A stretch of 44,133 nucleotides of DNA, taken from positions 1 to 44,133 of the IMG/VR virus record IMGVR_UViG_3300015202_000019; one strand, written 5' to 3'. The position numbers and the translations under genes were made by a program. This document shows positions 12,720-31,394 of this stretch, piece by piece. Positions within the stretch are counted from its first letter, which is position 1. Each line of letters begins with the position of its first letter. Under the pieces are notes generated by a model. It searched no databases, was not told the origin of the DNA, and saw only the letters and a list, made by a program, of their open reading frames with translations. This DNA comes from a virus.

Positions 12720-13805
12720 ATGCCGCTCACTCTCTCTCGCAAGACCCCCAAGGTCGGTCAAGACACCTTCGCGGCGTTCCCGCAGGATCAGGGCGTTCCC
12801 GTCGCGGCGAACGTCGGCCTCTACGCCGGCGGCGTGGCGATGCTCGCGACCGGCGCGGTCGGGACCGGCGTCATCGCAGCGGCGATCGGCAATGCCGTTC
12901 CCGGGCAAACGGCTCCGGGCCTCATCCCGCTGGGCATCTCGCAGCCGAGCAACCCGCAGACCGCCGCGGACGTGTTCAACACCACGTCTCCCGCGAACCC
13001 CTCGCCGGTCAACGGCGGACCGGCCACTCCGAACGGGCTGTACTCGTACTACGTGACTCCCCGCACGGGCGAGTTCCTGATGAACAACGGAACCGCGGCG
13101 TGGGACGTCATCGCTCCGCAGCACACCGGGCAGATCGCGTACTCGATCGACGATCAGCAGGTCGCGTGTAGCTCGGCGTTCGCGTCGCGCTCGCCGGTCG
13201 GCGTCATCTGCGGTCTCGAGACCCAGACCCAGACCCTCCCCGGCGGCGTGCTCGTGGAGATGGCCCCGGGCATCGCCCAGCTGCACCCGCCGAGCCTCGC
13301 GGAAGTTCCGCTCGCCGCGACGACCATTCTCGCGGCCCTCGGCGAGACCGTCATCGGGCGCACGAACGCTCCCCGGATGATCAACGGGTTCTCGTTCGCC
13401 TCTCCGACCGCGGTGCTCACCGGCGCACTCCCGCTCGATGCGACGCTCCAGACCTGGGCCAAGTTCCAGCTGGGATACCGCGCGCCCACGGCGCCAGGTA
13501 CGCTCGTCATCATCGGCGAGGTGGTGCTCAGCGGCACCACGACCGTCGCCGGCGCGACCCTCGCGGCCTTCGCCCCGACCGGCCTCAACCTGAGCGGCGT
13601 GCCGGTCTACGGACCGAATGCCAACGGCGCTGCCTACTTCGGCACGCAGACGCAGGCCGCAGCGCTCGCCGCGACCGGCTGGGGCCTCGGGACGATCACC
13701 GGCCAGAACCCCCCGTTCGTTCCCGCCGGCTCGGTCCTCACCCTGTCGATCATCAAGGGCACCACCGGTGCCGTCACCCCCGCCGGGACCCTCTCGGTCT
13801 TCTGA
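12720..13805 (+). CDS. Capsid decoration/cement-like protein, 361 aa
   Basis: A 361-residue Ala/Gly/Thr/Pro-rich protein immediately before the major capsid gene. Segments 'VAMLATGAVGTGVIAAAIGNA' (split as TGAVGTGVIAAAIG) and the Gly/Val-rich strands after it resemble capsid cement proteins of the DUF2190 type, which are much shorter (about 110 aa), so there would be extra domains here. It has no Cys-rich or catalytic motif. In Mu-type operons a small decoration protein often sits between protease and capsid. SD GGAAGG lies upstream. An alternative is a second structural head subunit. Confidence 0.55.
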   Translation: MPLTLSRKTPKVGQDTFAAFPQDQGVPVAANVGLYAGGVAMLATGAVGTGVIAAAIGNAVPGQTAPGLIPLGISQPSNPQTAADVFNTTSPANPSPVNGGPATPNGLYSYYVTPRTGEFLMNNGTAAWDVIAPQHTGQIAYSIDDQQVACSSAFASRSPVGVICGLETQTQTLPGGVLVEMAPGIAQLHPPSLAEVPLAATTILAALGETVIGRTNAPRMINGFSFASPTAVLTGALPLDATLQTWAKFQLGYRAPTAPGTLVIIGEVVLSGTTTVAGATLAAFAPTGLNLSGVPVYGPNANGAAYFGTQTQAAALAATGWGLGTITGQNPPFVPAGSVLTLSIIKGTTGAVTPAGTLSVF

Positions 13806-28383: not shown

Positions 28384-29009
28384 CACAGGACAAGACCATG
28401 GCCGACCAGCCTATCGACCCCCGAGCAGAACCGCCGGCGCAGCCCGCCACCAAGCAGGTCCCCCGTGAGGACATCCTGCAGGCGCAGCTTTCGCAGCTCC
28501 TCACCCGAATGGGAGAGGGGTTCGCAAAGGTAGACGTGCTGGTCGTCGACGTCACTCGCCTGACGGGGACCGTCGAGCTCGTGAGCAACGACCTGGGCAT
28601 CGTCAAGGATCGCGTCACCATCTTGGAGGCCGAGCGCACCAAGCAAAGCGGGGGCCTCCGCGGACTGAGCAACGCTGGCGAAAACCTGCAGCTACAGGTC
28701 GCTTCGCTTCAGGCGCAGCTCGCTGAAGCGAAGGCGCGCACCGTCTCCAAGGAGGACGTGAAAACGTTGGTCAAGGAAGCGGCCGCGTCGCAGACCGCCG
28801 AGATTGCGACCATCGTGGAAACGTTCGCGAAGACTCCCACGGCGCAGAAACTCAAGGGCGCCATCCTCCCCGTGCTTATGGCGGCGATCGCGATCATCGG
28901 AATCAAGCTCACCGTGATTCTAAACAAGCTCCAGGAGGCCCCGCCGCCTCCGCCAACCGTCGTGCAGCTCGCCCCCATTACCGTCTACGGAGACGCCGGA
29001 ACCAAATGA
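28380..29009 (+). CDS. Coiled-coil membrane protein, possible holin/lysis factor
   Basis: A 209-residue protein with three parts: a Pro-rich start, a long coiled coil from about residue 40 to 145 ('VLVVDVTRLTGTVELVSNDL', 'LQLQVASLQAQLAEAKA'), and one hydrophobic segment near 165-187 (ILPVLMAAIAIIGIKLTVIL), then a short Pro-rich tail (APPPPP). One transmembrane helix at the C-terminal side with a coiled coil predicts a membrane-anchored oligomer. It lies just before the endolysin cluster, so a holin-like or lysis-control role is plausible; canonical holins are shorter. Start at ATG 28380 (ATGA); ATG 28398 is a second choice. Confidence 0.5.
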   Translation: MTQDKTMADQPIDPRAEPPAQPATKQVPREDILQAQLSQLLTRMGEGFAKVDVLVVDVTRLTGTVELVSNDLGIVKDRVTILEAERTKQSGGLRGLSNAGENLQLQVASLQAQLAEAKARTVSKEDVKTLVKEAAASQTAEIATIVETFAKTPTAQKLKGAILPVLMAAIAIIGIKLTVILNKLQEAPPPPPTVVQLAPITVYGDAGTK

Positions 29010-29233
29010 AGATGCTCCTCTCCACGTTCACCATCCCGCTCACGGTCATGCTGACCGTGGTCTTCGTCAACTGCACCGAGGCCAAGCAGATCGAGGCCGC
29101 ATCGGGATACGAGGCTCAGCAGATGAGCTGTATCGACCAGTACGCTCGGCGCGCGGACATCGACGCATGCCGCGCGCGCGTCAAGGCCGCATGGTCCACG
29201 GTCGACGCAGGCAGCGAAGGGGGCGACCGATGA
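29006..29233 (+). CDS. Small membrane-anchored or exported protein, 75 aa
   Basis: A 75-residue protein with an N-terminal hydrophobic stretch (MKMLLSTFTIPLTVMLTVVF) ending at Cys23, which could be a signal or signal anchor; VFVNC is only a poor lipobox. The rest is helical with two more cysteines. Between a coiled-coil membrane protein and endolysin, it might be a spanin component (o-spanin-like) or a holin partner. The evidence is position and the N-terminal segment. ATGA overlaps on both sides. Confidence 0.5.
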   Translation: MKMLLSTFTIPLTVMLTVVFVNCTEAKQIEAASGYEAQQMSCIDQYARRADIDACRARVKAAWSTVDAGSEGGDR

Positions 29234-29506: not shown

Positions 29507-30241
29507 ATGCGCGAGTCCGTACGATCGTCGTGGATAGAGATGAATACGCCGCTCGAGGGCTGTCTCGATTACCCGTACGCCGACGTGCTGAATCTCATAA
29601 CCACGGGCATGGGCAACCTTATCGACCCGGTGTCTTCGGCGATGGGTCTACCGTGGCAGGTGGACGGCCGAGAAGCTCGCGGAGATGAGATTGCAGCGCA
29701 GTGGTGGCGCGTGAAAAACGACCCATTCTGCGCCAGAAAGGGGCACCTATACGCCAGAGGGTTGACCACGATTCGTCTCACTCAGGAGGGCATCAAGACG
29801 GTCGTCTTCCGCAAGCTAGATGCGAATGAAGCGGTGCTTCTATCGCGGTTCCCTGACATGGCCGGATGGCCCGCGTGCGCACAAATGGCGACGCACTCGC
29901 TCGCGTGGGCCTGTGGGCCGTCGTTTCACTTCCCCAAGCTGGCCTCCGCGTTGCTCGCGCGCGACTTCGATGCTGCTGCCGTTGCGTGCACGATCAACGA
30001 GTGGAATGGCTCGGTTCATAACGTGGGAGTCATCCCGCGAAACGTTGCGAATCGCATTCTTTACCGCAACGCGCAGCGGGTCGAGGCGTACCACCTAGAC
30101 CCTGACCTCCTCGACTGGACGCACGACCTCAGCGTGAGCGATGCGCCGACGCTGCCTACACTGGACGACCCGCCGAGCGAGCCCACGGTGCACGTGGACC
30201 CGGGGTCATACTTCGAGGACCCGCCCGACGACGCGGCTTAG
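29507..30241 (+). CDS. Endolysin, T4-lysozyme type (GH24-like)
   Basis: A 244-residue muramidase predicted to cut the glycan chain of peptidoglycan. The catalytic E-D-T triad of T4 lysozyme is present at exact spacing: Glu17, Asp26 and Thr32, in EGCLDYPYAD and TTGMGNL (T4: Glu11, Asp20, Thr26, TIGIGHL). The middle (RFPDMAGWPACAQMATHSLAWA) resembles the second lobe of the fold. There is an extra C-terminal Asp/Pro-rich tail of about 50 residues. No signal peptide, so a holin is needed. Start ATG 29507; ATG 29540 is an alternative five residues before Glu17. It ends convergently on the metzincin gene. Confidence 0.82.
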   Translation: MRESVRSSWIEMNTPLEGCLDYPYADVLNLITTGMGNLIDPVSSAMGLPWQVDGREARGDEIAAQWWRVKNDPFCARKGHLYARGLTTIRLTQEGIKTVVFRKLDANEAVLLSRFPDMAGWPACAQMATHSLAWACGPSFHFPKLASALLARDFDAAAVACTINEWNGSVHNVGVIPRNVANRILYRNAQRVEAYHLDPDLLDWTHDLSVSDAPTLPTLDDPPSEPTVHVDPGSYFEDPPDDAA

Positions 30242-30813
30242 CGCGCGGAGCACCAGAGGGACGCGTACGCCGCGGCCGCCCCCGGCGTGACCGTCGTCCA
30301 GACGGTGCCCTGCTCCATTAGGCCGGTAGTGGCGTGCGAGATCCCGAAGCCATGGCCGAGCTCGTGGAGGGGAACGTGCAGGAACGTATCGGCGGGCGCG
30401 GCGGGGTCAAAGACGACCCAGGAGCCCCGGACGTGGTCTGGGTCCCACGACGCGTAGCCCCAGTCTCCGCCCGGGACATCCCCTACCCCCACCTCGATAG
30501 TGAACGCCTCGGGGAGCGCCTTGATCGACCGGAGCACGGCCTCGATGGGACGCGTCGGACCGCGCGAGACGGTGAACTCCAGATCGCACGGGACAGCGCC
30601 CTTCCATGCGCTCATGGCGTCGATCACTGCAAGATACTGGGCCTCAGGCACGCGGGGGTCGACGGTGACGGTCCAGGACGTACGCGCAGCGGCCTCGGTC
30701 AGAAGGACGGGCTCGGCAGCGGGCGCTAGGTCGGTGCCGGACGGCTCGACGGGCTCGATGCACCCGACCGATAGGACGGACACCGAGAGAAGGACCGCAA
30801 CACAGGTGGTCAC
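30238..30813 (-). CDS. Metzincin-type zinc protease, predicted lipoprotein
   Basis: A 191-residue protein from GTG 30813, fixed by a GTGA overlap. It begins with a short signal (MTTCVAVLLSVSVLSVGC): a hydrophobic core then a lipobox-like SVGC with Cys18, so export and lipidation are likely, though Ser at -3 is not ideal. After an Ala/Pro linker comes a small protease domain with HELGHGFGISH (150-160): zinc ligands His150, His154, His160, catalytic Glu151, plus a Met-turn candidate in ATTGLM (Met166). This is the metzincin/matrixin signature HExxHxxGxxH. It is the last gene of the leftward unit, facing the endolysin. A role at the cell envelope (superinfection exclusion, surface change or lysis) is inferred. 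Confidence 0.8.
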   Translation of the reverse strand: MTTCVAVLLSVSVLSVGCIEPVEPSGTDLAPAAEPVLLTEAAARTSWTVTVDPRVPEAQYLAVIDAMSAWKGAVPCDLEFTVSRGPTRPIEAVLRSIKALPEAFTIEVGVGDVPGGDWGYASWDPDHVRGSWVVFDPAAPADTFLHVPLHELGHGFGISHATTGLMEQGTVWTTVTPGAAAAYASLWCSAR

Positions 30814-31394
30814 GTGGCTGGTCCCCTCACCGCCGCCCGCCGACCAAAGTGCTGCCCAATGATCCGCCCGGTCGGCCGCCCGGCAGGCGGCAAGTCGTCC
30901 TGTCCGGTCGCGGCTTTCGCAACTCGGGCCAGCCAGTCGCCGTTGATTCTCGCGGCGCCGCTGTCTCGCTGGCATCGCTCTGCCGCCTCTCTGATGACCT
31001 TGGCAATCACCTGGCTACGCACCAGGCCCCAGCGCGCCGCGAGCGCATCCAGGGCCGACGTGGTGACGCCGTCGAGCCGCAGCGTCATGCGGGTGCCGAG
31101 ACGGTCGCCCTCTGCGATGGTCGGCCCCGAGCGACTCTTGCGCTCGGGGGTGGGCTTGCGGCGGGGCATCAGGCGCCCTCCTAAGAGGCGGAGCACCTTG
31201 CGTTCGTTGACGGCCCACTCCAGCGTGATGCAGGCGCGAACCCACGTCTTGCCGTGAGCGCTGAACCGATCAGCCATGTACTTTACCTCGGCGTTGCCCT
31301 CGGCCAGAGTGTCCCGCTTCGGACTCTCCTCACCGTCGCGGCCGTCGCGGGCCCAGAAGTCGTAGGCAGCCTCTGGCAAGAGGCGGCGCCTCAC
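30810..31394 (-). CDS. Putative ribbon-helix-helix type DNA-binding protein, 194 aa
   Basis: A 194-residue protein from GTG 31394 (GTGA overlap). The first 75 residues are of unknown fold. From residue 76 the protein reads like a ribbon-helix-helix regulator: 'RMTLRLDGVTTSALDALAAR' (strand then helix A) and 'WGLVRSQVIAKVIREAAERC' (turn and helix B), inside a basic sequence. A strong ribosome site (AGGAGGG at 31182-31176) precedes an in-frame ATG at 31169, so a 119-residue short form containing only the DNA-binding half may also be made. It may regulate the leftward unit or the protease gene coupled to it. Confidence 0.6.
   Translation of the reverse strand: MRRRLLPEAAYDFWARDGRDGEESPKRDTLAEGNAEVKYMADRFSAHGKTWVRACITLEWAVNERKVLRLLGGRLMPRRKPTPERKSRSGPTIAEGDRLGTRMTLRLDGVTTSALDALAARWGLVRSQVIAKVIREAAERCQRDSGAARINGDWLARVAKAATGQDDLPPAGRPTGRIIGQHFGRRAAVRGPAT

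Follow-up and report, generated by a model that had tools for sequence, protein, structure and literature searches.

A predicted lipoprotein metzincin gene at the end of an early-type operon in an uncultured phage

Why would a phage encode a zinc protease with a lipoprotein-like start, and what might such an enzyme act on during infection? The question is raised by the window analyzed here, the whole 44,133-nucleotide stretch of IMG/VR record IMGVR_UViG_3300015202_000019. This 44-kb phage encodes a Mu-like portal and protease, baseplate J, terminase, and a D5-like primase. On its minus strand are genes for exonuclease VIII, a DNA methyltransferase, an excisionase-like protein, and a polymerase processivity-factor/RusA-like protein. 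No integrase was found in the record, and no relatives were found for the head-region gene at 12720 to 13805.

Gene and genomic context

The genes considered in this section are as follows.

30238 to 30813, minus strand: metzincin gene (predicted lipoprotein), 191 amino acids (aa), GTG start; from the codon-usage caller and from profile and fold matches
30810 to 31394, minus strand: upstream gene, ribbon-helix-helix-like by eye, overlapping the metzincin start by 4 nt
29540 to 30241, plus strand: convergent endolysin gene (lysozyme-like), 35% identity (E = 4e-27) to the endolysin of locus L095
29006 to 29233, plus strand: 75-aa lipobox-like Cys protein (VFVNC), o-spanin-like by position only
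28398 to 29009, plus strand: coiled-coil-like protein of the lysis region with one C-terminal hydrophobic segment, from sequence

The frame at 30238 to 30813 was picked by a codon-usage caller, and its GC contents by codon position (0.69/0.55/0.84) resemble those of the neighboring minus-strand genes. HExxHxxGxxH did not occur in any open reading frame (ORF) of at least 150 codons in 200 dinucleotide-preserving shuffles of the window. Together with the motif-independent homology described below, these results uphold the preliminary description, which had read the ORF as a full HExxHxxGxxH plus Met-turn protease, and in our judgment, which is not a computed value, the gene is almost certainly a metzincin gene.

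The metzincin gene is the last of a minus-strand operon of early type, as had been described, with early or late timing judged from gene content only. Its GTG start lies inside a 4-nt overlap (GTGA) with the upstream gene, to which it is translationally coupled. The upstream gene has no PHROG match, and neither a promoter nor a terminator of the metzincin gene's own was found above chance nearby.

At its other end, the gene faces an endolysin gene tail to tail, as the preliminary description had it. The endolysin gene itself matches no family and is assigned by homology: the L095 endolysin matches PG_binding_1 and PHROG endolysins and, weakly, Phage_lysozyme. A second endolysin relative, L128, was dropped as the same contig as L095. 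The window endolysin is also 41% identical to an unannotated ORF of MW202476 (MW202476.1, 23704 to 24285, plus strand; locus L129:12001-12582), an endolysin ORF within a gap in the deposited annotation. The 3' ends of the endolysin and metzincin genes overlap by 4 nt in antisense, with no terminator-like site between the two genes, so that read-through of either gene would be antisense to the other.

Active site, family, and fold

30334 to 30366, minus strand: zinc-binding/catalytic motif HELGHGFGISH, residues 150 to 160, from sequence and alignment
30316 to 30318, minus strand: Met-turn methionine M166, an invariant alignment column

The window protein carries the metzincin-clan zinc motif HExxHxxGxxH/D, with Glu151 as the catalytic Glu, as previously proposed, and a Met-turn downstream of the third His. 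Thirty-three rows were aligned, the window protein and 32 other short metzincins from viruses; H150, E151, G153, H154, G157, H160, and M166 are invariant across them. Most motif columns were fixed by the choice of sequences, and the weight therefore rests on similarity outside them, where A66, W70, and G119 are nearly invariant. A profile lacking both the window row and the motif region recovered the window protein at E = 1e-9, and a motif-masked profile whose alignment was itself built without the window protein recovered it at E = 3e-8. With the motif and the signal region both removed, it was still found at E = 4e-7 to 7e-5, while the next unrelated proteins in the motif-masked searches stood at E = 0.04 or worse.

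The profile of the 33 rows matches matrix metalloproteinases (MMPs) at E = 1.8e-13, and 32 of the 33 members match Pfam M10 at E ≤ 0.01, the window protein being the one exception. Its single-sequence Pfam matches (Metallopep, E = 0.0065; M10, E = 0.023) all lie below the cutoff; it scores 15 bits against the 24-bit gathering score of PF00413, which many relatives pass, and it matches MMPs in the PDB at E of about 1. The metzincin has no PHROG match, and only one of the 33 members has any, a weak one.

Structure prediction, which had been suggested as a check, returned a zinc-protease fold. The AlphaFold2 model is of moderate confidence (pLDDT 72), and its strands and helices follow the order seen in metzincins, with a mixed beta sheet, an active-site helix, and a C-terminal helix. 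Its best PDB matches in Foldseek were karilysin (E = 1.7e-5), several MMPs, archaemetzincin, and snapalysin (E = 2.2e-4), with TM-scores of about 0.55. The motif, the Met-turn, the topology, and the profile similarity are thus common to the window protein and peptidase M10 (PF00413; karilysin and MMP catalytic domains). The window protein differs from M10 in falling below the cutoff, in having its Met only 6 residues past the third His, in its lipoprotein-like start, and in having no visible cysteine-switch pro-domain in residues 19 to 45. Such a pro-domain, known from vertebrate MMPs, is not universal among bacterial M10 members.

Protein searches of the phage, viral-contig, and genome-contig collections found no close relatives. 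Alignment-based searches returned one weak match in cellular genomes (a Methylocystis metagenome-assembled genome [MAG], 25% identity) and no relatives in viral contigs. Lacking a close relative in these collections and lying below the Pfam M10 cutoff, the protein is best described, on its sequence and model, as an orphan, matrixin-like metzincin formally under the M10 cutoff.

Predicted export and anchoring

30760 to 30801, minus strand: lipoprotein-type signal, hydrophobic VAVLLSVSVLSVG followed by lipobox-like SVGC, from sequence, hydropathy, and alignment with the lipoboxes of relatives
30250 to 30588, minus strand: span between the two codons of the candidate disulfide Cys76-Cys188, from counterparts in relatives

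The hydrophobic stretch comprises 13 residues with a mean hydropathy of 2.4. The lipobox-like LSVGC (residues 14 to 18) aligns with the lipoboxes of many relatives and makes Cys18 (30760 to 30762) the predicted lipidation site. The +2 residue is Ile, so that there is no Asp retention signal at this position. A positively charged n-region is usual, although not absolute, in bacterial lipoproteins, and the n-region here (MTTC) has no Lys or Arg. For this reason, lipoprotein status remains a prediction; the lipobox-like start after a hydrophobic stretch agrees with the preliminary description, and we judge it likely, as an opinion rather than a computed value, that the protein is a lipoprotein. 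Cys76 and Cys188 both have counterparts in L047, L104, and L089; the two may pair, and a disulfide would suit an extracytoplasmic protein.

The uncharged n-region would also fit a protein that has an intact metzincin core and yet is not exported or not active, and a tandem relative in L013 with a degenerate motif (RELGHELGLPS) indicates that pseudo-enzymes exist in the group. We consider this very unlikely, given that the catalytic residues and the Met-turn are all kept and that the codon signal is like that of the neighboring genes.

Distribution of related genes

An IMG/VR DNA pattern scan for HELGHxLGxxH, using CAYGARYTNGGNCAYGSNYTNGGNVTNNNNCAY, found the pattern in at least 119 stretches, and a second scan found 7 stretches with HELGHGFG. 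Among the matches listed, 121 metzincin ORFs were read from the pattern-matched stretches; 16 are lipoproteins by a strict rule, 47 have another hydrophobic N terminus, and 58 have none. Some of the latter two groups look like lipoproteins by eye, so that at least 16 of the 121 are lipoprotein-like. The search in other phages that the preliminary description had called for thus turned up genes of this kind in many uncultured phages, and its statement that this is not a normal phage gene was too strong. Phage proteins annotated as matrixin or Zn-protease exist, and a metzincin of phage origin has been published (PMC8235301). Annotated viral matrixins with a predicted metzincin fold occur in tailed phages (Maribacter phage Colly_1, A0A8E4XY18; Lactobacillus phage 3-521, A0A4Y5FGF2; uncultured Caudovirales, A0A6J5P205), with 12 to 17% identity to the window protein over the structural alignment.

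Several other features emerged from these searches. A large, closely similar family of approximately 270-aa phage metzincins (MAR.P...VLP..EIL..L...GYFG, no signal peptide, CHELGHALGL.HL motif) includes L009, L016, L017, L028, L029, L038, L054, L055, L058, L061, L062, L067, L084, and L090. Signal-bearing metzincins with an HE[FL]GH[GA][LF]G-type motif followed by HY were found in L003, L010, L022, L023, L035, L037, L057, L066, L077, L079, and L087; their composition leads us to guess at archaeal viruses. Directly upstream of the L013 metzincin lies a second, homologous lipoprotein gene (L013:8385-9056, minus strand; profile E = 1e-16), the tandem relative mentioned above, whose motif is lost; this pseudo-protease is perhaps a partner or inhibitor. 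The "metallopeptidase" of MW202476 was rejected as a relative, being HELAH type without the metzincin motif.

In viral contigs, metzincin copies are patchy and positionally variable, with a second copy within one record in L119, G029, and G041, and matrixin motifs are common in cellular genomes too. The patchiness and the second copies suit cargo genes. The pattern would also accord with a moron that benefits the host apart from exclusion or lysis, as a protease for nutrient scavenging, defense, or competition. However, the record has no integrase, a short-lived infected cell would gain little from slow benefits, and nothing specific suggests such a host-benefit cargo, which we regard as unlikely.

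Proximity to lysis genes

The place of the gene beside an endolysin raises a further possibility, that of an accessory lysis factor: an anchored protease would weaken the envelope by cutting outer-membrane or peptidoglycan-linked proteins, and endolysin-driven lysis would then be completed. Several relatives fit this. In L095, L002, and L098, the lipoprotein metzincin adjoins a 55- to 62-aa holin-like protein and a small Cys protein, with endolysins 2 to 3 kb from the metzincin in L095 and L098. The window's own small Cys protein (29006 to 29233) has 17 to 20% identity to those of the three loci and has C23, Y35, C42, C55, R56, and V59 in common with them, making it a possible o-spanin analogue; the adjoining coiled-coil-like protein (28398 to 29009) has no family match above cutoff. 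In L086, the metzincin ORF and an endolysin gene (M15 type; PHROG 465, E = 2e-5) overlap by 4 nt, and four relatives are single ORFs in which a coiled coil and a hydrophobic segment precede the lipobox and metzincin.

L014:12164-12790, L052:3299-4000, L086:935-1705, and L109:1115-1810: fused coiled-coil metzincins, near a tail-fibre-like gene

An XhlA identity of these fused N termini was not supported: they have no XhlA family match, which counts against a lysis role. Further, the window gene lies on the early-type strand, antisense to the endolysin 3' end, and metzincins are not significantly enriched near endolysins. Among 12 records with a detectable endolysin (window left out), 3 have one within 3 kb of the metzincin (1.5 expected; P = 0.17) and 4 within 5 kb (2.4 expected; P = 0.20), in a test of low power because family models detect these phages' endolysins poorly. 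In L013, L099, L100, L104, L119, and L047, the metzincin has early-type genes around it or is located at a distance from the lysis genes.

A published precedent for a lysis role is Listeria Mtz, a secreted metzincin of phage origin that is paired with Tim; Mtz-Tim increases lysis sensitivity and is encoded downstream of holin-lysin in prophages (PMC8235301). Compared by description, Mtz resembles the window protein, for which export is predicted, as a phage-origin, extracytoplasmic metzincin near lysis genes. Mtz, however, carries a Sec/SPI signal, and the lipoprotein of the pair is its partner Tim, whereas here the protease itself is the predicted lipoprotein. No Tim-like (lipoprotein TIMP-like) partner gene stands next to the metzincin in the operon: the upstream gene product is cytosolic-looking (RHH-like) and the convergent gene is the endolysin. 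On balance, help with lysis seems doubtful, if somewhat more probable than a moron.

A possible role in surface remodeling

We favor, tentatively and at less than even confidence, a cargo protease, made early and anchored in the outer membrane, that would remodel surface proteins, over help with lysis, because of the early-type operon position, the predicted anchor, and the patchy distribution. The metzincin would be made alongside the phage early genes as an active, Sec-exported, lipid-anchored M10-like enzyme that folds with a periplasmic disulfide and, having no Asp at +2, would be sorted to the outer membrane. There it would cut at least one envelope or surface protein of the infected host cell. 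The phage would most likely gain from this through receptor or adhesin loss, leading to superinfection exclusion or host conversion.

Surface remodeling is consistent with the intact catalytic residues, the motif-independent homology, the fold match, and the lipobox-like start. The terminal position in a minus-strand operon recurs in L047 (record G014), where the metzincin is likewise last of a minus-strand run and faces a plus-strand gene, and early-type genes surround the metzincins of L104, L119, L013, and L099. A precedent is T5 Llp, a small, periplasm-facing phage outer-membrane lipoprotein with an intramolecular disulfide that blocks receptor use (PMC9586334); the corresponding traits of the window protein are predicted. 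The likeness is one of logic only, as Llp is no protease and jams FhuA noncatalytically without a protease fold (PMC9586334), whereas the window protein would act catalytically. Against surface remodeling stand the uncharged n-region, the moderate pLDDT and TM-scores, and the relatives in lysis or late regions (L086, L095, L098, and L002); for lysogenic conversion, the absence of an integrase leaves no direct support.

More speculatively, and improbably on present evidence, membrane-anchored metzincins could be a widespread and overlooked phage tool, in which a catalytic outer-membrane lipoprotein achieves superinfection exclusion proteolytically, by destroying a surface receptor, and related coiled-coil-fused forms have been recruited into lysis cassettes. 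Phage annotation captures this class poorly, as the PHROG searches illustrate. Known excluding phage lipoproteins such as T5 Llp work by binding, and a catalytic one, if true, would represent a new principle, with its target betrayed by the cleavage products. Naming the substrate of one member would explain a recurrent gene of uncultured phages.
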